From: Empedobacter tilapiae
GTDB taxonomy: Bacteria; Bacteroidota; Bacteroidia; Flavobacteriales; Weeksellaceae
Assembly: GCF_004785645.1 (NCBI RefSeq)
Contig: NZ_SRPE01000008.1
Span: 1-64,000, forward strand
Length of the DNA stretch: 64,000 nt
Reading direction: 5' to 3'
The first letter of the stretch is position 1. Each line of letters opens with the position of its first letter. The notes under the pieces are model-generated. The model saw only the letters and a program-made list of their open reading frames with translations. It was not told where the DNA came from and made no database searches. Below are positions 46,682 to 57,612 of this stretch, piece by piece. Made by a program: the position numbers and the translations under genes.

Positions 46682-47104
46682 TTATAAACTTAAATGTAAA
46701 ATAGGGTAATCTTTGCCTTCTCCATCCTTTTCTGAGCGCGATTCAACGTTAAAACCTTGACTTAAATAAAAATCTGCGGCTTGTTTATTTTGTTCGTTTA
46801 CATCAACTGATCTTACGTCTAATTCTTGAATAGAATATTCTAACAAAGCTTTTCCTATTCCTTTTCTACGAAAATCATTATGAATAAATAACATTTCAAG
46901 ATTTTGTTCTGCTACACCAACAAATCCTACAATTTGATTATCGATTTCGAAACCAAATAATGTAACACATGGAAAATAGTTAGGTAAATTTTCTTTGTAA
47001 TATTCGAAATCTTCTTTCGCTAAGAAATCATGTGTATGTATAACTGCACTCTCCCAAATCTCTTTCAATCTTGAGAAGTCTTTCTCTCTTATTTTTCTAA
47101 TCAT
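46682..47104 (-). CDS. GNAT family N-acetyltransferase
   Basis: 140 residues, YjaB-like. IRKIREKDFSRLKEIWESAVIHTHDFL at the start and the acetyl-CoA loop LFIHNDFRRKGIGKALLEYSI (RxxGxG) are diagnostic; the C terminus has VNEQNKQAADFYLSQGF. It acetylates an unidentified amine. It is probably followed by read-through into the MFS gene. Confidence 0.87.
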   Translation of the reverse strand: MIRKIREKDFSRLKEIWESAVIHTHDFLAKEDFEYYKENLPNYFPCVTLFGFEIDNQIVGFVGVAEQNLEMLFIHNDFRRKGIGKALLEYSIQELDVRSVDVNEQNKQAADFYLSQGFNVESRSEKDGEGKDYPILHLSL

Positions 47105-47218
47105 TCCTAAATTTTATAGTTGCAAAGATATAAATGACTGCTTCAAAAAATTAAAAAAAAAATATTCTATTGAGAATCATTTTGTTAAAAAATATTTTAA
47201 AAATATTTGTTTTCAGAG

Positions 47219-47249
47219 TTTGGAAAAACGAAAAAGCGTTCTATATTTG
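47219..47249 (+). promoter_or_regulatory. tRNA-Ser promoter
   Basis: TTTG at 47219-47222, exactly 19 bases, TATATTTG at 47242-47249: a perfect Bacteroidetes housekeeping promoter. A small leader hairpin (cgcag/ctgcg, 47263-47276) sits between it and the tRNA. Confidence 0.8.
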
Positions 47250-47280
47250 CACTCGCAATACCGCAGTAGACTGCGTTATT

Positions 47281-47365
47281 GGAGAGTTGGCAGAGTGGTC
47301 GAATGCGGCAGTCTTGAAAACTGTTGAGGGTCACACCTCCGGGGGTTCGAATCCCTCACTCTCCG
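47281..47365 (+). tRNA. tRNA-Ser (UGA)
   Basis: Acceptor arms ggagagt / actctcc with discriminator G at 47365, a long class II variable arm (gagggtcacacctc), T loop gttcgaatc, and an anticodon loop cttgaaa with anticodon TGA at 47315-47317. CCA is not encoded. The accessory region begins directly behind it; tRNA genes of this type are common insertion sites. Confidence 0.96.
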
Positions 47366-47520
47366 CTGAAAGGGATTCTATCATTTAGAATCTCTTTTTT
47401 TTGTGTATATTAATAAGTTTTTCTCCTTTATTTTCAAATGGTTAATCGAAAATAAATCGATCATCGTAGGTGTTCGATAAATACCATTTTCATAGTATAA
47501 ATTGCTGTCGAACACCATGT

Positions 47521-47672
47521 TTACAAATTCTCTTTTCTGTAAAGTATTGCTTTAGAATAAACAAATTTCATATCCGTTAATTGATTCAGATTCTTTTCTA
47601 AGATTTTAAAAGCAATTTGTTGATTAGCGCTATATTGCTCTATTGCCCCTCTAAGAGTTATAATTTTGTCAT
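47521..47672 (-). pseudogene. Frameshifted gene fragment
   Basis: On the minus strand, a frame ending at 47521 reads ITLRGAIEQYSANQQIAF and continues KILEKNLNQLTDMKFVYSK to a TAA, with normal coding character. The only upstream ATG (47672) is one base out of frame, as if one A of a short A run was lost. It may be the remnant of an element gene. Function not recognised. Confidence 0.35.
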
Positions 47673-47872
47673 TTTAAACAAAAAAACAACGTTGATACGT
47701 ATCCTTGCTTACTTCGTTTTTAATACATTCTACTGCCACTATGTTGCCTTCATCTTGCCTTGATGTTGGGAGTATCCTGCTACTATTTATAAATAGATTA
47801 TTATATTATAGTTGAACGCAAAAAATAATAGGTCAACTAAAATGTATTTTTTGATGTATCTTCTTCGACAAT

Positions 47873-47924
47873 CCTTCGACCGTTGTTCGAGAAAACACCT
47901 TTTTTCTCGAACCATTGTCGAAGG
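47873..47924. repeat. Long interrupted hairpin
   Basis: ccttcgac pairs with gtcgaagg (8 bp), and gttcgagaaaa with ttttctcgaac (11 bp), separated by 4-base internal loops cgtt/catt and closed by a 6-base loop. No gene explains it. It could be a structured RNA, a recombination site or a remnant end of an element. Confidence 0.6.
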
Positions 47925-48013
47925 ACACTCGAACAAACCTCGAAAAATCTAGTTATTTTGTTACTAAAAAATATTGACTACAAAATAAGAAGTACACCTT
48001 GTTGAGTAAAACA

Positions 48014-48049
48014 AAAAACCTCCTTAAAATATCATCTAAAGAGGTTTTT
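48014..48049 (-). terminator. Terminator after the AIPR gene
   Basis: Stem aaaaacctc / gaggttttt with an 18-base loop; T run in the minus direction, 46 bases past the AIPR stop. Confidence 0.7.
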
Positions 48050-48094
48050 ATTTATACTATTCTGTGTTTTTGTACCTAAAAATGGAGTTGCGCA

Positions 48095-49942
48095 TCAGTT
48101 ACCCATGTTATACGCTGTATTATGTTTTAATTTAGATGTATTATTTTTATTTGTAATCAAACTATGTTCGAAATCCTTTTTTAATGATTTATAATACTCC
48201 TTACTTTTAAATAGAACAGAGTTAACTATTTTTGAATCATCTTTTTTTCTTTTTTCAAGATCAGAAAGAATGAAATCTGATATGTATTGATATTGTTTTT
48301 CTACCTTATCTAAAGTATTATTCTCAAAATATGTGATTAATTTTCCGTTAATTGAGTTTGCATTCTCATTTGTATGTAATAATAGAATCTTAAACAATGC
48401 TAATATTTCAAAGTTTGCATATTGTATGAAATCATATTTTAAATAGTCTTGTTCGTTATTTTTCAGATTATTCGTGTCTATTTTATCTATAATAGATTTT
48501 ATTGCTTTTCTTTTTCTATCTATTAATAGATGTAGTAAATATGCAACATACATGTTGTCATATTTAGTTTCATTATTAAATATTATTTCATACAAACCAT
48601 TATTTTTAATTTTATTTGAGACGAAAATTAATTTTCTATTTTGCTTTGCATTAAATGGGTCATTAATGAAGTAAGCTAAATATAATTGTCCAAAAGTTTC
48701 ATTAGTTATTACTGAAACCCCTTTAATCTTTTTTCTAAATTCTCCACGTCTAGTTTCGTACCAAACATTTGTGTTTTTTAGAAACTCTTTTTGAATATTT
48801 AGTTGAATCTCATCATTTGCATGAAAATCTCTTTCACTAATAGGATTTTGAGAGTTTGTGTATCTTGTAACTTTTAAATCAAAATCATCACCACCAGATT
48901 CTAATACCCTAAAGGTTATTAAAGCATTATGATCCATTTTTTTTCTTGTTTCATCATCAGCATACTTATAGGAATCATAAATGCTGTAAACTGTTTGTGC
49001 ACCATTTATAACCTGAATACCATTAATAGTTACAATATCTGAATCAGAATGAAAATCATCAATTCTGTCTGTTATTGCTGTTATTCCATTATTGAAGTAC
49101 CAAAAATTTATAGGATTATTTTTTACAGTATTCTTTATTTCTTCATTAAAATGAGATGATGTTAATGGGTTCCTAATATTTTTATAAAATAAAGATTGTC
49201 CGAATTTATCGAACATCAAATATATTTGAGAAGGTTTTATGATGAATATATTCGATTTAAATGGTTTATCTACGTATATAACTTGATTTTTTTCAAACTT
49301 TAATTCGAATTCTGACTTAGGGATATAAGGAGTTTCAATTGGATTATGAGTTTTTATACCTTTAAATTCAAGCTCAATATATTGTTGTTTCAAGGAATTG
49401 AAGTCAAGTAAATCAAAAGATATCAAGTTCGAAATAAAATCGTCTATATGCTCTTTTAGATTTACATCTCCATTGCATAAAGCTAGAAATAGAAATTTTA
49501 CTTTTCCATTTTTTCTTTTGTGTTTTAAAAATTTTTCATATTGAATATTAAAATTTTTATTTACTTCTGATTCTTTTTTTCCTGATAAAATTATTCGAAA
49601 ATCAGTTAGACAAGACTTTATTTCTTTGCTTAGCTCATTTGATTTATTTATATTTTTCTTAGAAAACCATTTTGCTTGAACTACATAATAAATCTCTTTC
49701 CCTTCTTGATCTGTATTTGAAAAAATTAAATCGCATGAAGAATCATCATTTCCTTCAGTTATGAATTTTTCTAGTTCTGATATCTCACAGTTTGGTAAAT
49801 ATCTTTTCAGAAACCAAATAAGAAATAAAAATGATTTTTGACCATTTTCATCTTGTTTTTGAAGATGCTCATTTTTCTTAAAAGTTGGTTTTAATTTATT
49901 GATTTCATTGTCAATAATATCGTAGAATATTTCATTCTTCAT
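48095..49942 (-). CDS. AIPR family abortive phage-infection protein
   Basis: 615 residues. The AIPR core lies at about 255-420: NFWYFNNGITAITD, then VTINGIQVINGAQTVYSIYDSY, and later LKVTRYTNSQNPISERDFHANDEIQ. The N terminus (about 35-95) looks like a PD-(D/E)xK nuclease: Asp71 in SSCDLIF and Gln89-x-Lys91 in YYVVQAKW. AIPR proteins were first linked to abortive infection; the nuclease reading is my inference. It is preceded by an XRE regulator on the same strand and ends in a terminator. Confidence 0.85.
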   Translation of the reverse strand: MKNEIFYDIIDNEINKLKPTFKKNEHLQKQDENGQKSFLFLIWFLKRYLPNCEISELEKFITEGNDDSSCDLIFSNTDQEGKEIYYVVQAKWFSKKNINKSNELSKEIKSCLTDFRIILSGKKESEVNKNFNIQYEKFLKHKRKNGKVKFLFLALCNGDVNLKEHIDDFISNLISFDLLDFNSLKQQYIELEFKGIKTHNPIETPYIPKSEFELKFEKNQVIYVDKPFKSNIFIIKPSQIYLMFDKFGQSLFYKNIRNPLTSSHFNEEIKNTVKNNPINFWYFNNGITAITDRIDDFHSDSDIVTINGIQVINGAQTVYSIYDSYKYADDETRKKMDHNALITFRVLESGGDDFDLKVTRYTNSQNPISERDFHANDEIQLNIQKEFLKNTNVWYETRRGEFRKKIKGVSVITNETFGQLYLAYFINDPFNAKQNRKLIFVSNKIKNNGLYEIIFNNETKYDNMYVAYLLHLLIDRKRKAIKSIIDKIDTNNLKNNEQDYLKYDFIQYANFEILALFKILLLHTNENANSINGKLITYFENNTLDKVEKQYQYISDFILSDLEKRKKDDSKIVNSVLFKSKEYYKSLKKDFEHSLITNKNNTSKLKHNTAYNMGN

Positions 49943-50141
49943 TTGCAGTTATGTTGATTTAATATAGCTTATAACATTGTTTTTTCACGAAACTGATCTA
50001 GCATTTATTTCGTAAAAAAACACCTATATCTTTATATCGCTAAATAACAAATATATAAATTAATCTAATTTATAACCATTATTGTATAATATATAAATAG
50101 AAAATACCTTTTTACTTTTTCTATTACTTTTTTAAGAAGTA

Positions 50142-50363
50142 CTAATCTATTAATTCTTTAAGACTAATATCTAAAGCGTTACAAATTTTTAATAAAGTAG
50201 AAAATAAAAAATCTTCCTTACCATTTTCTATATCACTGATTTTTGATCTATCAAATTTTGGAATTTTTTCAGCCACTTGTTTTTGAGTAAGTCCCTTCTC
50301 TTTTCTCTTTTTCTTTATTTTTTCGCCGATTATCTTATAATAAGTTGTATAATTTTCCTTCAT
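50142..50363 (-). CDS. XRE family helix-turn-helix regulator
   Basis: 73 residues, almost only the HTH_3 domain: IGEKIKKKRKEKGLTQKQVAEKIPKFDRSKISDIENGKEDFLFSTLLKICNALDISLKELI. It is oriented like the AIPR gene, 199 bases upstream of it, and probably represses it. An inverted repeat tgtgg-N8-ccaca at 50378-50395 just upstream is a likely binding site. Confidence 0.9.
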   Translation of the reverse strand: MKENYTTYYKIIGEKIKKKRKEKGLTQKQVAEKIPKFDRSKISDIENGKEDFLFSTLLKICNALDISLKELID

Positions 50364-50377
50364 TGTAAAAAAATAAT

Positions 50378-50417
50378 TGTGGTTTTATTGCCACATTAAA
50401 AAATATTATTATATTTG
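50378..50417. promoter_or_regulatory. XRE operator overlapping a rightward promoter
   Basis: Inverted repeat tgtgg (50378-50382) / ccaca (50391-50395). On the plus strand TTG (50388-50390), 19 bases and TATATTTG (50410-50417) form a strong promoter pointing away from the XRE gene into a region without a gene. XRE binding would cover the -33 element. Confidence 0.5.
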
Positions 50418-51093
50418 TATAAGCGAATTGATAATTAGACTTTTAATAGTCATTATTAAACGATGTAATCTCGAACCGTAACGACCAATTTTATCTTCGA
50501 GAGTATCGTGAAATCGCTCCATGTCTCAAAAGTTTTGTACTTTCGCATACGGCATGGGCGGTTTTCACATATGCTTTAGGAGATAACTTTTAAACTTTCG
50601 AGTTTATAAGCTGGGTTTGGTCGCCCACGGTACTAAAGTGTGAAGCCGCCTTGCTTTTTTTGCAAGTATTTCTTCATACACGAGAAACATCGTTCCATAA
50701 AACCCAACACAAAATGAGAACGAAACAATTTCCATTCATCCGTAAAAAACCACCAGACAAAGTCTGTTGGTGTTACTAATTCTTTTAAAGAACAATACTC
50801 CGTATTTATAGCATTTTTAAAACACGGATCGTAAAGCAAAGGGCTATCCTTTCTTTACACGCTCTCTATCAGAGCCTCGGTAATGAGACTTTGACAGTAA
50901 TTGTTATACTCTTTTTTTCGCACATTAAAAGTAAACCCTTTATTGCCATTTTCCAAATTTATTGGGGTTCTGCTACCTATTATTTAGATGTGAGACGTGA
51001 GATTTTAGTATAGAGAGGATTCAATTATGAACAAATTAGATTTCTTGAAATGAAAAAATATTAGAGAAATAATATGTTAAAAAGTGTTAAATT

Positions 51094-51210
51094 CCTGTAT
51101 CGGTGTATATCCAAAATGCCACTTTTCTGTATCGGTTGTGTATCCGCGCTGTATCCATTCTGTATCCATTGTATATGCGTTCCGTATGGTTTGTTCGGTG
51201 TTCGTGTATC
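51094..51210 (+). repeat. Iteron-like TGTATC repeats
   Basis: At least six copies of (c/g)tgtatc(c/g) and several near-copies (gtgtatatcc, ttgtatatg, ccgtatgg) within about 115 bases, all in the same direction at 8-24 base steps. Such direct repeats bind replication or partition proteins in plasmids, but no rep gene is in this window. Confidence 0.45.
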
Positions 51211-51594
51211 GGAAGGGATAGGATTTTTGATTTACGACGTGGGATTTATGATGTAAAAAGTACAGATTAGATGTTAGATATGAGAATTGAGAGTTTAGAG
51301 TTGTAAAATGTAGTATTTATGATGTACAAAGTATTAAGTAAAATGTAAAAAGTAGTATGTATTCAGATTAAGGATGAGGTTTTGAGATAAGTTCAGAATG
51401 ACAACGAATTTGAATATTGAAAAAGGATGAATAAACCGGCATTAAAACTCTCACGTTAAAAAGATTTTAGCCCGTAGGGTTTGTAAAATCTTTAGTGAAA
51501 TGAGAACATTTTTAGTAGAGAGGTTTACGGCCTTGACTTTTTGGTTACTTTTTAGTCAAGTAAAAAGTGACATTATTAAAGAAAAGGAATACCT

Positions 51595-51611
51595 GAGTCA
51601 CATCGTGACTC
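51595..51611. repeat. Palindrome GAGTCAC-ATC-GTGACTC
   Basis: Perfect 7-bp arms around a 3-base centre, about 240 bases upstream of the sigma factor gene. It could be a protein-binding site. Confidence 0.5.
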
Positions 51612-51851
51612 CTCCTCTTAATCTCAAATGTTATTAAAAATAAATTTGATTATTAATAAGAATAAAAATGCGTAAAACGTTAAGCGTAGATCGTAAACCG
51701 TAAAAAAATAAAACCCCTTTCCCAAAAACAAAGTTGGCGCGATGTACTGGAAAAGGAGAGGCTTTTAAAACTAATGTTGAATTTTAAAAACGATGTTAAA
51801 ACGTAGAACGTAATACGTATCACATAAAACATAAATAAAACCACCCTTATT

Positions 51852-52634
51852 ATGCTAGAAAAAGAATTTGAATTATTAAAAAAAGGCAATTCTACTGCTT
51901 TCGAACGTATTTATGTCAGATATAATAAACGCATCTTTTGGTTTGGAAAACAATTAATTATGGATGAATTTGTTGTGGAATGTTTGTTACAAGACGTGTT
52001 TCTGAAACTTTGGGAATATCGAGAGAAGATTGAATCTCCCGATCATATCTTTTTCTTTTTGAGGCTTGTAATGAAATACAGTTGCTATTCGCATTATGCT
52101 AAACCGAAGAATAAGTTTTTTAGAACTGTGAATTCGTTGGAGAATTATGAAAATTATCAAAGTTATTTGGCTGGATATGATCCCGCTGATGTAATAGAAA
52201 ACCTGAACGAACAAGAAACACAACAGCACTATTTTGATGAAATTATAAAAGTATTACCCTTATTAAGTACTGAAAGAAAGCATCTAATTGAACTCTGTTT
52301 AAAACATGGATTTCAGTACAAAGCCATTGCTCATGCAATGGGAAGAGGAATAACCGAAACAAGTAACGAAATTAAAAGTGCTATAGCGGATCTTAAGAAG
52401 ATTTTAAGTCATCAAGATAAGTTAATTATTAAAACCAAAACAGTCTCTACAGAAGAGAAGCTAGAAAAGATGACCAAAACACAATCGTTGATTTTACAAC
52501 TTCGATGCGAGCATAAACAATCTTTTTCAACAATAGCTTCAACATTACAATTGTCTCAAAAAGAAGTGCACAACGAATTTATAGTCGCTTATAAATTTAC
52601 CCAACAAAATAAAGCTCAATCCCTAAACTATTGA
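51852..52634 (+). CDS. ECF sigma factor paired with dead Cas12f
   Basis: 260 residues. Sigma-2 lies at about 12-75: GNSTAFERIYVRYNKRIFWF and then ECLLQDVFLKLWEYREKI, the core-binding part. Sigma-4 lies at about 126-186: LSTERKHLIELCLKHGFQYKAIAHAMGRG. After a linker, residues 203-250 look like a second sigma-4 helix-turn-helix (KMTKTQSLILQLRCEHKQSFSTIASTLQLSQKEVHNEF), which normal ECF factors (about 180-200 residues) lack. There is no anti-sigma gene. Its stop overlaps the start of the Cas12f-like gene (TGATG), so both proteins are made together. I infer that the Cas12f-RNA complex recruits this sigma to target promoters. Confidence 0.88.
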   Translation: MLEKEFELLKKGNSTAFERIYVRYNKRIFWFGKQLIMDEFVVECLLQDVFLKLWEYREKIESPDHIFFFLRLVMKYSCYSHYAKPKNKFFRTVNSLENYENYQSYLAGYDPADVIENLNEQETQQHYFDEIIKVLPLLSTERKHLIELCLKHGFQYKAIAHAMGRGITETSNEIKSAIADLKKILSHQDKLIIKTKTVSTEEKLEKMTKTQSLILQLRCEHKQSFSTIASTLQLSQKEVHNEFIVAYKFTQQNKAQSLNY

Positions 52635-53734
52635 TGATGGAAAAATCTACTTTAATACTCACTCGAAAAATACAGTTAATTGTTGATTTACCTACCCAAG
52701 AAGAACGTCAAGAGGTTTTAGAAACACTTTATAAATGGAGAAACAGGTGTTATAGAGCCGCCAATTTGATCGTTTCACATTTGTATATACAAGCGATGGT
52801 GAAAGAGTTTTTGTATCTCTCAGAAGGTATTGTACACAAGTTGGTTGATGAAAAGAAAGATGAAGCAGGAATCTTACAACGTTCGCGAATAAATACCACT
52901 TATCGGGTGATATCAGATCGTTTTAAAGGGGAAATTCCGATGAATATATTATCGTGTTTAAATAGTAGACTACAGAGTACTTTTAACAAAGATTACCAAG
53001 AATATTGGAGAGGAGAAGCTTCGTTAAAAAACTTTAAACGAGATATGGCATTTCCTTTTGGATTGGAAGGTATTAGTAAACTATCTTATCATCCCGAGAA
53101 AAAAAGTTTTTGTTTTCGATTGTTTCAACTTCCATTCAAAACCTATTTAGGAAGAGATTTTACAGGTAACAAAAAACTATTGGAACAAGTAGTAAATGGT
53201 GAAGTTAAACTTTGTACTTCGCAAATAAAAATAGAAAAAGGGAAAATATTTTGGTTAGCTGTTGTAGAAATTGAAAAAGAAAACCATCAATTACAACCAG
53301 AAACTATTGCAGAAGCTTCCTTATCATTAGAATATCCATTGGTTGTAAAAGTAGGTAAATCTAGACTTTCCATCGGAACCAAAGAAGAGTTTTTGTATAG
53401 AAGATTAGCGATACAAGCGTCCCGTAAACGAACCCAAGCAGGAGTAGCTTATGCGAAATCGGGCAAAGGAAGAACAAGAAAATTAAAAGCTCTCGAAAAA
53501 ATGAGTGAATTAGAACGTAATTACGTACATAATCGATTACATGTTTACAGTCGAAAGCTAATTGATTTTTGCATCAATAATAAAGCAGGAACACTTATTT
53601 TATTGGATCAAGAAGAAAAAATAGAACTAGCTAAAGAAGAAGAATTTGTACTAAGGAATTTGAGTTATTATGAATTGATAACCAAAATAAAATACAAAGC
53701 TGACAAAGCAGGAATTGAGCTTATTATAGCATAA
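52634..53734 (+). CDS. Nuclease-dead, truncated Cas12f/TnpB-like protein
   Basis: 366 residues from ATG 52634 (or 52637). The order fits Cas12f/TnpB: WED strand LTRKIQLIVDLP, REC helices from about 25 (LYKWRNRCYRAANLIVSHLY), second WED part (about 130-215, KLCTSQIKIEKGKIFWLAVVEIE), RuvC region, and the typical helix GRTRKLKALEKMSELERNYV with HNRLHVYSRKLIDFCINNKAGTL (about 280-320). Catalytic residues are missing: the RuvC-I strand reads SLEYPLVVKVGKSRLSIG with no Asp, and the RuvC-II strand reads TLILLDQ where IxEDL is expected (Leu324). The chain stops at KADKAGIELIIA, before the zinc finger and RuvC-III. It should bind RNA and DNA but not cut. Confidence 0.85.
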   Translation: MMEKSTLILTRKIQLIVDLPTQEERQEVLETLYKWRNRCYRAANLIVSHLYIQAMVKEFLYLSEGIVHKLVDEKKDEAGILQRSRINTTYRVISDRFKGEIPMNILSCLNSRLQSTFNKDYQEYWRGEASLKNFKRDMAFPFGLEGISKLSYHPEKKSFCFRLFQLPFKTYLGRDFTGNKKLLEQVVNGEVKLCTSQIKIEKGKIFWLAVVEIEKENHQLQPETIAEASLSLEYPLVVKVGKSRLSIGTKEEFLYRRLAIQASRKRTQAGVAYAKSGKGRTRKLKALEKMSELERNYVHNRLHVYSRKLIDFCINNKAGTLILLDQEEKIELAKEEEFVLRNLSYYELITKIKYKADKAGIELIIA

Positions 53735-53746
53735 ATTATAATTTTT

Positions 53747-53853
53747 GAGGGCGATTGTACACCCGTAAGGTGAGGTTGATTACGAACACTCACTAAATGT
53801 AATCAACATATACAACAGCTCACTTATCGTTCTTTCATCAACAAATAATGGCA
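53747..53853 (+). ncRNA. Guide RNA 1 of the dCas12f-sigma locus
   Basis: Begins 12 bases after the dCas12f stop, behind a -7-like box (taattttt g). The scaffold, aligned without gaps to copy 2, is 74 bases (53743-53816). It can form hairpin ttgattac/gtaatcaa (53776-53783, 53799-53806), a small hairpin cacc/ggtg, and a pseudoknot gtgag/ctcac (53770-53774, 53789-53793). It ends in tacaac, like a CRISPR repeat end. The next 15 bases, agctcacttatcgtt (53817-53831), differ fully from copy 2 and are the predicted guide. A conserved tail, ctttcatcaa and more, runs to 53853. Confidence 0.75.
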
Positions 53854-54064
53854 AGAAATGGCAATGGATTAGAAAGTATGTATTTCAAATGTTTTTATAC
53901 AAAAAACAATTTGAAGATAAAAAAAACTCGGATACAACTCTTAAGTCAGTTTTGGAAATGAATTTAAATAAATGAATTTTGAACAATATAAAAATTTTGT
54001 TTGTCTATGTTTAACCTTGATTGGGTAAATAATAGAAAATCAAATTTTAAAACACTATAATTTT

Positions 54065-54171
54065 GAGGGTGATTGTACACCCATAAGGTGAGGTTGGTAA
54101 TAAACACTCACTAAATGTAAATTACATATACAACGCGTGGGTTCACTTACTTTCATCAATAATTAATAGCA
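54065..54171 (+). ncRNA. Guide RNA 2 of the dCas12f-sigma locus
   Basis: Second copy, 318 bases downstream, aligned without gaps over 111 bases: scaffold 65 of 74 identical, tail 19 of 22 identical, but the 15-base window gcgtgggttcactta (54135-54149) matches copy 1 at only 5 of 15, as expected by chance. Scaffold differences keep structure: gtgag/ctcac remains and the hairpin becomes gtaat/attac (54097-54101, 54121-54125); gggtg/caccc is improved. TAATTTTG at 54058-54065 is a perfect -7 box. Confidence 0.72.
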
Positions 54172-55162
54172 GATACTCTTTGATGTTAAAAGCAAGATAA
54201 TGAGAACGTATATTTGTCTGAAATTCGTATTTCGGAATTGGAGTTCGTTTACAACAAAGTGAATTTGTGGGAAAACATTTTTCATCTATCTATATTCAAC
54301 TTAAAATAAAAAAATTAATAGAGATTCAATCCTCAAAACACTTTAATTTTCATCCACTATTTTCTCGGCTTATTAAAGAGTTTTTATCGGATAGGTGAAA
54401 GCATAACATCTGTCATCCTTTCAATGGCTGTGACAGCCAACTTTATTAAATATTTTTGATTATTCACTTTCATAAGTGATTTGATTAAAAAGGATAGATT
54501 TTCAATCAAAAGAAATAAAAAGGCAGCTAAGTTTGAAAGGACTCCCACGCTATAGCCAGCCAAAAGCTTACGGCATAATGAAACAGAAAAACAAAAATAA
54601 AGTTATTTTTTCTGTTTCACCCTTTGGGACTTAATCCGTTTCCTTTTGTCTCTGCACTGTCCTTTCCGATTTACTGCTTTCTTTTTCTCCTTTTTCTTTT
54701 GAAAACTAAATCTAAATAAAGATTTAGTTATTTTCAATTTCTTGTATATACATATAGTAAAATGCTTTTACATAAAAGCGTACAATTGTAATTACGTATT
54801 GATGTAAATATCTACTTACATATTTAAGTAAACATATATCCACTTGCTACTCTAAAAGCGTATTTAACTATCTATAAACATAATTCAGTAGTGTTATATT
54901 TCTTTTATACTATATATTCTGATTTTCTAACAGATTTGCAATCTTCATTTCTAAATGGTAGCATTTGGAATTTAGTGACATAATTTGTCTTATAATCAAT
55001 TCCTCATAGATACCTTACTTTGTAAAACTTAATACAGTATCCAAAAACTTATTTTTTTATAAGATAATAAACTTTTTAGAACGATTATTTTGGAGCGAAT
55101 GGTCAAAGTAAAATGTATTCATTTATACAATTATTTGGAAACATATAAATGTTTTGGAAAAA
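54172..55162. other. Non-coding region before the mobilization genes
   Basis: About 1 kb without a gene. It contains the palindromes ggctgtgacagcc (54426-54438) and tcactt-tcat-aagtga (54464-54479), a 13-bp perfect stem tgaaacagaaaaa/tttttctgtttca (54579-54591, 54607-54619), and an AT-rich stretch (54720-55140) with repeated aaaagcgta and acatat words. This could hold a replication or transfer origin. No rep gene seen. Confidence 0.55.
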
Positions 55163-55197
55163 GCAAGCGGGAGTTGGGCAGAGCCCTACTCGCTTGC
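55163..55197. other. Putative oriT hairpin
   Basis: Strong interrupted hairpin: gcaagc/gcttgc, gagt/actc and gggc/gccc stacked around an aga loop. It is much more GC-rich than its surroundings and lies about 140 bases upstream of the mobilization genes, where Bacteroidetes mobilizable elements keep their transfer origins. The nick site cannot be placed. Confidence 0.6.
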
Positions 55198-55224
55198 CTC
55201 TTTACTGCGTTACAGAGGATTTTC

Positions 55225-55241
55225 GTATACCAGAGGTATAC
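55225..55241. promoter_or_regulatory. GTATACC palindrome 1
   Basis: gtatacc-aga-ggtatac, perfect. Likely binding site for the mobilization accessory protein encoded at 55334, for oriT binding or self-regulation. Confidence 0.65.
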
Positions 55242-55277
55242 TTTTGATCATATAAGCTCTTTATAATCACAAAAATG

Positions 55278-55295
55278 GTATACCACCAGGTATAC
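55278..55295. promoter_or_regulatory. GTATACC palindrome 2
   Basis: gtatacc-acca-ggtatac, perfect, centred about 53 bp (five helical turns) from palindrome 1 and 39 bases before the mobilization gene. Confidence 0.65.
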
Positions 55296-55333
55296 ATAAA
55301 GAAAAGATGAATTGGATTTAGAAAATAAAGAAG

Positions 55334-55882
55334 ATGAAGCAGAATAATACCAACAGCATTCGTTATCCAAAAGAAACAGATGAAAAATTAGAGAAGCTGG
55401 CTGAAAATTTAAGACGAAGCAAAAAAGAATTGTTTTGTCAGATGGTGGATTATTTTTATCGATGTAAAAAAGATCCTTCAGATGCGGGAGATGAAATCTT
55501 GAAGAAAGAACTTTCTTCAGGAATCAGTCGCATTATAGCCTTCATTCGACAACAAGAAAAAGATTTCTTATTGCCTTTGTTTTCTGATACTGCTATTCTA
55601 AAAAATGCTTCAAATAGTCAAAAAGACTTGTTAGAAAAAATGGAACATTATTTAATAGAAGAAAATAAGCAAACTTCAATACTTACGAAACAAAATCTAC
55701 AGATCACAAATGCATTAAAATATTTACTATCCAAACAGAAAGAAAAAGAAGTTTTGAAGAAGCAATTTGCTCAATTATTGGATGATTATATCTACAAGCG
55801 TGAAGAAATGGGTTGGACAACTTCAGGATTAAAAAAAGAAGAACTTGTCAATCGCATTAAACAATCTCTTAAAAACCTATAA
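55334..55882 (+). CDS. Mobilization accessory protein (BfmA/BtgA-like)
   Basis: 182 residues. The N-terminal SIRYPKETDEKLEKLAENLRRSKKELFCQMVDYFYRCKKDPSD looks like a ribbon-helix-helix DNA-binding domain, followed by long charged helices, as in BfmA/BtgA proteins that bind oriT in Bacteroidetes mobilizable elements. Two palindromes directly upstream are its probable targets. The stop overlaps the next start by one base (TAATG), coupling it to the relaxase. Confidence 0.8.
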   Translation: MKQNNTNSIRYPKETDEKLEKLAENLRRSKKELFCQMVDYFYRCKKDPSDAGDEILKKELSSGISRIIAFIRQQEKDFLLPLFSDTAILKNASNSQKDLLEKMEHYLIEENKQTSILTKQNLQITNALKYLLSKQKEKEVLKKQFAQLLDDYIYKREEMGWTTSGLKKEELVNRIKQSLKNL

Positions 55883-56826
55883 TGATGTTTATTCATATTA
55901 CAGATTCTGAAACGGGTAATAATAAAGGAAGTTGCGGTCAATTGGTTAAATATTTAGAAAAAGAAAATCAACGATCAGAACAAAAGAAAGACCTTGAATA
56001 TTGGTTTAATCATCAAAATAAAACAATTTCACCTCAAGAAGTTCGTGTAAATATTGACCATAATATTTCTAAATTAAGTCGTAATGATGCCAAGTTTTTT
56101 CTAATTAATATTAGCCCAAGCGAGCAAGAAATTATGCATTTAAAGGAGTGTTTTGGAAATAAAGGTGCAGAAGAAAAGTTAAAAGAATATGTCAGTCATA
56201 TAATGGATGCTTACGCTCAAAATTTCAAACGCAATGGAATTGAAAATGCGAAAGATTTACTGTGGTATGGAAAATTAGAACAACATCGCTATTACCACCA
56301 TACGGATGAAGAAGTAAAACAAGGATTAGCTAAAATAGGAGAAACTAAATCTGGAGAACAAATGCATATTCAGATTATTGTCAGTCGAAAGGATCGTACA
56401 AATAAAATCAAACTTAGTCCAATGAATACCTCACGAGGTAGAAATCAAAGCCATTCTGCTAAATTGGGACAGTTTAATCGAGTAGCTTTTAAAGAATCAG
56501 GTGAACTAATTTTTGATAATATGTTTGAATTTAATCGTTCATTAGAAGATTCACTGCACTACAAACTCATTATGAAAAACGGCAATGTGGAGCAAAAAAG
56601 AACAATCCATTTATTCAATCAAATTGAAAATAAATTAAACGATTCAGACAGACAAACTATTTTCGATATAACAAAAGACATCTATAGAAATAACACTGTT
56701 GATTTTGAGAAAATAGTAAACAACCTAGAAGTATCAACTGAACTGATTAACTTACTATTTACCAATAATGTTCTAGAAAATGAAAATGTAGAAGAGCAAT
56801 CAGTTCAAAAGAAAAAAAAGGACTAA
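55882..56826 (+). CDS. DUF5712-type mobilization protein (putative relaxase)
   Basis: 314 residues. FIHITDSETGNNKGSCGQLVKYLEKENQ at the start, LLWYGKLEQHRYYHHTDEEVKQG in the middle and GEQMHIQIIVSRKDRTNKIKLSPM are the conserved parts of DUF5712 proteins found beside BfmA-like genes. The His-rich centre and the MHIQIIVSRKD strand suggest a relaxase fold that nicks oriT; the tyrosine nucleophile is not certain. The C terminus is helical and basic. Either Met at the start is possible. Confidence 0.75.
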   Translation: MMFIHITDSETGNNKGSCGQLVKYLEKENQRSEQKKDLEYWFNHQNKTISPQEVRVNIDHNISKLSRNDAKFFLINISPSEQEIMHLKECFGNKGAEEKLKEYVSHIMDAYAQNFKRNGIENAKDLLWYGKLEQHRYYHHTDEEVKQGLAKIGETKSGEQMHIQIIVSRKDRTNKIKLSPMNTSRGRNQSHSAKLGQFNRVAFKESGELIFDNMFEFNRSLEDSLHYKLIMKNGNVEQKRTIHLFNQIENKLNDSDRQTIFDITKDIYRNNTVDFEKIVNNLEVSTELINLLFTNNVLENENVEEQSVQKKKKD

Positions 56827-57124
56827 GCGTCGTTCAATATTATAAATAGTTAATATAAAATGTCTAATTTAATCAATCTTAATTATTTTCAATACTCTTC
56901 AAACTTTTATTTCTATTGAGATTTATTGTAAATTTGAAACCATTCTATCTGTTAACAGAATGTATATTTCTTATTAAAAGAACCATCTCAATAATTTGGG
57001 ATGGTTTCTATTTTTTACAAGATTATTTATTATTCAAATTAGTTCGTTTAATTAAATTATAAACTTAGAGTCGTTATTTAAGATTGTAGTATACATATAA
57101 TAATCTATTAAATTTTTAAAAAAT
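56827..57124. other. Intergenic region after the mobilization genes
   Basis: Nothing coding. It contains the hairpin cattct / agaatg (about 56941-56962) and a terminator-like stem aaccatctca / tgggatggtt followed by T-rich sequence (56981-57017), likely ending the mob transcript. Confidence 0.6.
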
Positions 57125-57159
57125 AAAAAAGGTTTAACTTATTTTAAGTTAAACCTTTT
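57125..57159 (-). terminator. Terminator after the lipocalin-like gene
   Basis: Stem aaaaggtttaactt / aagttaaacctttt with a 4-6 base loop, T run in the minus direction, just past the gene. Confidence 0.88.
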
Positions 57160-57162
57160 CCA

Positions 57163-57612
57163 TTATCTTTTTAATACAAGAATTTCAATCTCATTTTTTC
57201 CATCCCCATCCAAATCTTCACCATAATCAGATTTTATAATCAATTCGTTTTTAGTTAATTTGATAATTTCAGCTTCATAAATATCATTATTTCCCCAATC
57301 AATAACAAGATTTTTATTTGTGGCTTTATAGGTTGCATCAATATTATCTTCAAGAATACATTTACCACTATTGTCAGCGTAATAGGTTATAACAGAATAT
57401 TTATTGTCTTTTGTAAATGTCAAAGTATTTTTTTCTTCACATGTATCTAATTTCTCATCTTCCATATGATTATCTTTTGAAAACTGAGTTTGATATTTTA
57501 CAAAACTCCATGTTCCTACTATACTAGCATTGTCAATAGATGAATTATCATCATTATTACAACTAAATAGTGAACCAAAAGCAAAAACGCTAGGTAAAAT
57601 AAACTTTTTCAT
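57163..57612 (-). CDS. Lipocalin-like lipoprotein
   Basis: About 149 residues from the Met at 57612 (MKKFILPSVFAFGSLFSC, lipobox LFSC); in-frame codons upstream (MRNNLKTKKI) look like leader. The pattern IVGTWSFVKYQT, LTFTKDNKYSVITYYADNSGKC, ATYKATNKNLVIDW, and ELIIKSDYGEDLDGDGKNEIEILVL fits the Bacteroidetes lipocalin-like family. DLDGDGKNE is a possible calcium loop. Role unknown. Confidence 0.8.
   Translation of the reverse strand: MKKFILPSVFAFGSLFSCNNDDNSSIDNASIVGTWSFVKYQTQFSKDNHMEDEKLDTCEEKNTLTFTKDNKYSVITYYADNSGKCILEDNIDATYKATNKNLVIDWGNNDIYEAEIIKLTKNELIIKSDYGEDLDGDGKNEIEILVLKR

Follow-up and report, generated by a model that had tools for sequence, protein, structure and literature searches.

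The window analysed in this study, a stretch of 64,000 nucleotides of Empedobacter tilapiae (positions 1 to 64,000 of contig NZ_SRPE01000008.1, assembly GCF_004785645.1), carries a gene for an extracytoplasmic function (ECF) sigma factor, a gene for a nuclease-dead Cas12f (dCas12f) and, directly behind them, two predicted guide RNA genes. These genes form a putative RNA-guided transcription locus of the dCas12f-sigmaE kind, whose guides probably address a conserved hairpin leader element, here termed E. The features of the locus are as follows:

51852..52634, + strand: ECF-type sigma factor (RpoE-like), 260 aa (TIGR02937, 4e-14; 9n9q_C, RpoE, 7.1e-84)
52634..53734, + strand: nuclease-dead Cas12f, 366 aa from the ATG at 52634 (9n9c, 9.7e-175)
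53743..53816, + strand: predicted guide RNA 1, scaffold (homologues in relatives; consensus fold)
53817..53836, + strand: predicted guide RNA 1, guide AGCTCACTTATCGTTCTTTC (scaffold/guide boundary placed by comparison with relatives)
54061..54134, + strand: predicted guide RNA 2, scaffold (direct repeat, homologues, consensus fold)
54135..54154, + strand: predicted guide RNA 2, guide GCGTGGGTTCACTTACTTTC (matches to E sites in the own genome)

The sigma factor, dCas12f and guide RNA genes

The two open reading frames (ORFs) overlap as TGATG, just as the initial annotation had described them. In a profile search the sigma factor passed the cut-off of TIGR02937 (52.6 versus 42.9 bits), and among PDB sequences it matched chain C of entry 9n9q, which is named RpoE. 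A comparison of the second protein with Cas12f and TnpB structures had been proposed in the initial annotation; made here with phmmer on PDB sequences, it returned 9n9c, 'Nuclease-deactivated Cas12f', over residues 2-365, followed by Cas12f and TnpB nucleases, whose E-values were 4e-44 or higher. The dCas12f chain is also part of entry 9n9q. When aligned to the Cas12f nuclease 9nzr (4.3e-44), the window protein was homologous over residues 86-363, the Asp of the 9nzr motif 'ivgvDlg' was replaced by Ser, the Glu of 'iqmErl' lay opposite a gap, and the match stopped at residue 416 of 508. We take the two motifs to be RuvC-I (Asp) and RuvC-II (Glu), and the zinc finger and RuvC-III presumably lie beyond the end of the match. 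The absence of both residues and of the C-terminal part, which had been noted before from the ORF, was thus confirmed, and the window protein does not have the catalytic RuvC residues required of a Cas12f nuclease (CRISPR type V-F). Moreover, the solved dead chain 9n9c has 365 residues, which indicates that the shortness of the window dCas12f is natural and that nothing was lost by accident. The ratio of nonsynonymous to synonymous substitution rates (dN/dS) between the window dCas12f and six others, including two paralogues from the own genome, was 0.05-0.15, so the gene is under purifying selection. A dN/dS value for the sigma gene was discarded because genes differing by one codon had been compared unaligned.

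The two RNA genes appear as a 111-nt direct repeat, 80% identical, starting at 53743 and 54061. One or two homologues lie right behind dCas12f in all eight loci (L002-L009) of the named relatives, which are E. brevis (twice), Faecalibacter, E. stercoris, E. falsenii, a metagenome-assembled genome of Aequorivita, Zunongwangia and Cytophaga sp.; the presence of two RNA genes at this place, as proposed from the window alone, was thereby upheld. The consensus fold of the scaffold contains 15 predicted pairs (20 sequences), and for two of these pairs 8-9 sequences differ at both bases. The scaffold ends in ATATACAAC, after which the guide follows. Guide 2 begins with GCGTGGGTTCACTTAC, and GCGTGGGYT.. 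stands at the same place in many relatives, so that guides of this form are conserved across several genera; guide 1 begins with AGCTCACTTATCGTTC and resembles the guide 2 sequence read five bases further on. Some guides among the relatives and copies have drifted. No CRISPR array was found at the locus: in positions 47000-57600 the scaffold occurs just twice, at a spacing of 318 bp.

Preprints from the Sternberg and Chang groups reportedly describe dCas12f-sigmaE systems that carry out RNA-guided, promoter-independent transcription. The gene order of the known system is sigma, dCas12f and RNA, and PDB entries 9n9c, 9n9m, 9n9o and 9n9q are, as we take it, structures of this system from Flagellimonas taeanensis. 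Judged by its sequences, the window locus is a member of this known kind. Both of its proteins are orthologous to the solved chains (9.7e-175 and 7.1e-84), and the locus is therefore a new member and not an independent invention, so that the earlier suggestion of an independent example was abandoned. By the same homology, the locus is shown to encode a complex of dCas12f, the sigma factor and the RNA.

Of 320 genomes of the same family, 76 carry relatives of dCas12f, fragments included; among the 306 good genomes the count is 75. In the own genome (G000), intact copies are present in the window and on contigs C1 and C11, a further copy on C14 (L070:4191-5294(-)) has one in-frame stop and a diverged guide, and fragments lie on C4 and C12. 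Furthermore, C11 and C26 each end with the start of a sigma gene, and C4 opens with the end of a dCas12f gene. These data suggest that the genome holds about five copies, some of them split by contig ends.

Element E and its likeness to the guides

Element E was modelled (R1) from 17 copies (alignment A1), and R1 found it upstream of the sigma gene in 17 of the 23 loci L022-L044, 14 of these 17 copies having been in A1; its end lies about 110 bp before the sigma start codon. No E was found by R1 before the sigma gene in L023, L027, L028, L033, L039 and L041. In alignment A2, which holds 35 copies from six genome sets, E covaried strongly: 96.6% of the cells pair, 21 of 34 pairs are changed on both sides versus 10.3 in shuffles, and the covariation score is 0.375 versus 0.130, with none of 500 shuffles as high in either measure, these figures being favoured by the fitting of A2 to R1. 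The signal was abolished when the pairing partners were slid. The guide-like arm of E (helix 6) is nearly invariant. An Rfam search of eight E-bearing loci gave three weak matches (E-values 0.11-0.28), none of which overlaps E, and E is apparently an undescribed structured leader that is common to many Flavobacteriia. Examples are L046:1450-1575(-) and L142:1501-1624(+). E was present in 71 of 76 dCas12f genomes and in 159 of 244 others, in lists that were compared by reading and are uncorrected for kinship. Before many copies stands a TATATTTG-like box, and a T-run follows CCACGCC; the leader allows a terminator-like pairing of GGCGTGG with CCACGCC before the T-run, which is excluded by the big hairpin and whose second half lies 58-60 bp from the guide site.

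The genes behind E are of several kinds. The R1 scan found eight copies in the own genome, of which three lie before sigma genes (C1, C11 and C26:192096) and three before SusC/SusD genes (C6, C2 and C25) at 0.8-2.5 kb, while C12:109920 and C2:111833 have neither downstream. One copy in E. brevis precedes susC, and the sole E found in Cytophaga sp. FL35 and in Zunongwangia lies 507 and 372 bp, respectively, before a TonB/SusC-type gene. Downstream of 39 E loci with short flanks were found sigma (8), SusC (4), a protein termed X (13) or none of these (14). In 34 of the 39 loci a divergent ORF starts 97-165 bp upstream of E; among 13 divergent proteins searched, nine scored above a Pfam helix-turn-helix (HTH) cut-off, three below it, and one had no match. 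Protein X (174-197 aa; for example L142:1854-2378(+), L165:1917-2510(+) and L144:611-1183(-)) is restricted among these loci to genomes G027, G048, G110 and G111, and searches of Pfam, NCBIfam and PDB gave no match of note for it.

Guide and E were also compared within single loci. In 14 of 18 E-bearing loci the guide opens with 8-12 nt that stand contiguously in E, a run equalled by only 0-7 of 1000 shuffled guides. In addition, a G precedes GCGTG/CCGTG in 38 of 39 E copies (34 of the 35 in A2 and 4/4 more), the exception being L168. The target-adjacent motif (TAM) of the dCas12f-sigmaE system is presumably a 5'-G, which the G before the E site fits and does not prove.

The initial annotation had also called for a genome search for guide matches upstream of genes. 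For guide 2 the first 15 nt, and for guide 1 16 nt, were scanned against the own genome, allowing up to three mismatches in each case and using the reversed pattern as a control. Guide 2 gave 20 non-self sites, four of which (C1:272748, C11:1521, C6:47760 and C2:155626) fall on the same arm of E, each after a G and each with 12-13 of the first 15 nt matched; chance placement of 20 sites would put about 0.003 in E (eight copies of about 125 bp, or about 1 kb on one strand, in 3.71 Mb). The first 12 nt of guide 1 match exactly the E site at C2:155635(-), again after a G. The search yielded four candidate E sites with imperfect matches and no perfect site. Counts of mismatched sites were rejected as evidence of targeting because the reversed controls match at least as often; only the placement in E is unusual, and it was used instead. 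With all 20 nt of guide 1 and up to three mismatches, the own genome returned the self match only. A comparison of each guide with its own locus produced chance-like matches, both in the window and in L002-L005, L008 and L009.

Several observations weigh against E as the target. For neither window guide did the own genome yield a perfect target, the reversed controls exceeded the guides in loose matches (32 versus 21 for guide 2 and 25 versus 18 for guide 1, self included), and just one of the 17 non-self sites of guide 1 lies in E, on C2. For copies C1, C11 and C14, the best sites of the guides in the stretches scanned do not include E, and in four of the 18 loci the run shared by guide and E is only 6 nt (L006, L032 and L034) or 3 nt (L024). 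Furthermore, E occurs in 230 of the 320 genomes of the family under strict filters, versus 76 with dCas12f, and its guide-like arm is conserved also in genomes without dCas12f; E must therefore have a further role, and the conservation of the G cannot count as independent evidence. Finally, E is absent from the sigma leader of the window itself, a full-model R1 scan of 47000-57500 having given 9 bits (E-value 1.1) at best. The window sigma leader being without E, the window guides would act in trans, via imperfect matches, if E is the target.

Proposed activation at E and competing explanations

The proposal that this is an RNA-guided transcription locus, first made from the window sequence, is well supported by the homology of both proteins to 9n9q, by the conserved RNA partner and by the guide matches in leaders of putative client genes. 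On the joint reading, to which we assign a probability of roughly 0.72, it would be a dCas12f-sigmaE system with guides aimed at E that switches on import and sister copies. In such a system dCas12f would load guide RNA made from the genes behind it and bind DNA with no cutting, and the bound protein would recruit its sigma partner and RNA polymerase, with transcription beginning a short way downstream of where it is bound. The guides would address the 3' arm of the hairpin leader; E fronts sister sigma-dCas12f operons and susCD operons, and nutrient import and the sister copies would probably be switched on together. We infer E as the functional target and activation, with feedback, as the result.

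Transcription in the dCas12f-sigmaE system presumably starts about 46 bp from the TAM, which is before the second half of the terminator, so that transcripts would begin without the first half and pass the terminator. It is possible, and we propose it tentatively, that the conserved guides address the whole class of E leaders, not single genes, and thereby form a self-amplifying switch of susCD and sister copies. The E leaders would otherwise be governed by divergent HTH regulators, of which several neighbour defence genes, and shut by the terminator, which the guided start, falling between the terminator halves, would bypass.

The same guide matches could serve repression, dCas12f at E acting as a roadblock with negative feedback instead of activating. 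In the sigma-dCas12f leaders a probable promoter stands upstream of E, so that dCas12f bound at E would also block elongation, and TldR proteins are RNA-guided repressors according to PMC13418256; repression is nevertheless unlikely, the sigma gene being co-operonic with dCas12f and its product corresponding to a chain of the solved entry 9n9q. Less probable is an action of the guide RNA on RNA, by which the E hairpin would be opened in trans to switch readthrough and dCas12f would not be led to DNA. The guide is complementary to the 5' arm of this hairpin, which excludes the terminator-like pairing, and is identical to the 3' arm; the strongly covarying structure of E (21/34 pairs versus 10.3, 0/500), the TATATTTG-like box before many copies and the T-run after CCACGCC agree with a switch of this kind. 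However, the protein family is one that we take to be DNA-binding, and DNA targeting would fit the G that precedes the site in 38 of 39 copies, although E is conserved in any case.

Common sequence descent of guide and E, with no targeting, would account for the absence of perfect matches and for the occurrence of E in more genomes than dCas12f, and we regard it as less probable again: the guides have kept their likeness to E across several genera, whereas the guide RNA does not contain the hairpin's other arm, and E stands before sigma or SusC genes in the orientation required for guided transcription. That the locus is a decaying mobile copy is very improbable, for its ORFs are intact and the dN/dS of the window copy is 0.05-0.15, even though the in-frame stop on C14, the fragments on C4 and C12 and the drift of some guides are of the kind that decay would leave. 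Activation at E by a dCas12f-sigmaE system remains the preferred reading.

Leader, surroundings and relation to known systems

Around the operon, the window contains the following features:

50364..51851, + strand: leader region of the sigma operon (palindrome, TATATTTG box, type-B leader, mosaic repeats)
50378-50395: operator-like palindrome TGTGG..CCACA, in the sigma leader region
50410-50417: TATATTTG box, in the sigma leader region
50142..50363, - strand: divergent Xre-type HTH regulator (HTH_19, 1.6e-14)
48095..49942, - strand: AIPR/AbiU-like abortive-infection gene behind the HTH gene (PF10592, 4.9e-35; AbiU, 2.4e-31)
55334-55882, + strand: BfmA/BtgA-type mobilisation protein (NF041200, 3.7e-14, above cut-off)
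55882-56826, + strand: MobB relaxase (NF041495, 1.5e-73, above cut-off)
47281-47366: tRNA-Ser, left of the AIPR-HTH-sigma-dCas12f-mob region

The type-B leader (50364-51030) consists of an HTH operator, the TATATTTG box, which we take to be the Bacteroidota -7 box, a structured stretch and a T-run, an architecture like that of the E leaders, and the window HTH gene is positioned as the HTH genes next to E are in other loci. This leader is common to C14, L002, L003, L004 and L005 (Empedobacter and Faecalibacter loci) at 86-92%. Mosaic repeats fill positions 51040-51851 between the leader and the sigma gene and occur also before susC genes. The window leader has 69 matches across the own genome, a pattern that suggests recombination among sigma and susCD leaders.

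Defence genes often stand behind the HTH gene (L068, L069, L113, window 48095-49942 and L172:9188). Of nine hand-picked proteins from five loci, five match PADLOC models, namely LmuB (3e-69), a type II MTase (5e-103), a PtuB-like HNH protein (1e-14), AbiU (2e-31) and PD-Lambda-5_B (4e-118); in E. brevis a Cas9-like gene, judged by eye, comes next in the HTH/defence region. The mobilisable surroundings described in the initial annotation were recovered as the BfmA-type protein and the MobB relaxase downstream. Integration of an element at the tRNA-Ser gene (47281) was considered and rejected, as the tRNA 3' end (16-40 nt) does not recur exactly in the window, and no integrase was seen among the window ORFs listed to 57.6 kb.

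The open-access literature searched, which did not extend to the original preprints, contained no paper on dCas12f-sigmaE systems or their native targets, and as far as seen there these targets are not settled. The kind of system is already known; what is new here is the target candidate E. A conserved class of targets uniting susCD import operons with the operon of the regulator itself would make the natural role directly testable, and, if true, it would mean RNA-guided activation of a regulon via a repeated leader element, not one guide per gene.

We know of no sigma partner for TldR proteins, one of the groups with which the window system may be compared. These TnpB-like, nuclease-dead proteins share with it a dead RuvC domain, RNA guidance and a regulatory role, as described in PMC13418256, and differ from it in that they repress. 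The Cas12f and TnpB nucleases are homologous to the window protein over residues 86-363, whereas the latter has neither the catalytic residues nor the C-terminal part, and the locus is without a CRISPR array. The closest likeness is to the dCas12f-sigmaE system of 9n9c, 9n9m, 9n9o and 9n9q, to which the window dCas12f and RpoE are full-length orthologues and with which the locus shares a predicted guide RNA gene directly downstream. In contrast to that system, the window locus has a pair of predicted RNA genes whose guides are shifted in register, a single genome holds about five sister copies, and the candidate guides appear to be aimed at a conserved hairpin leader.
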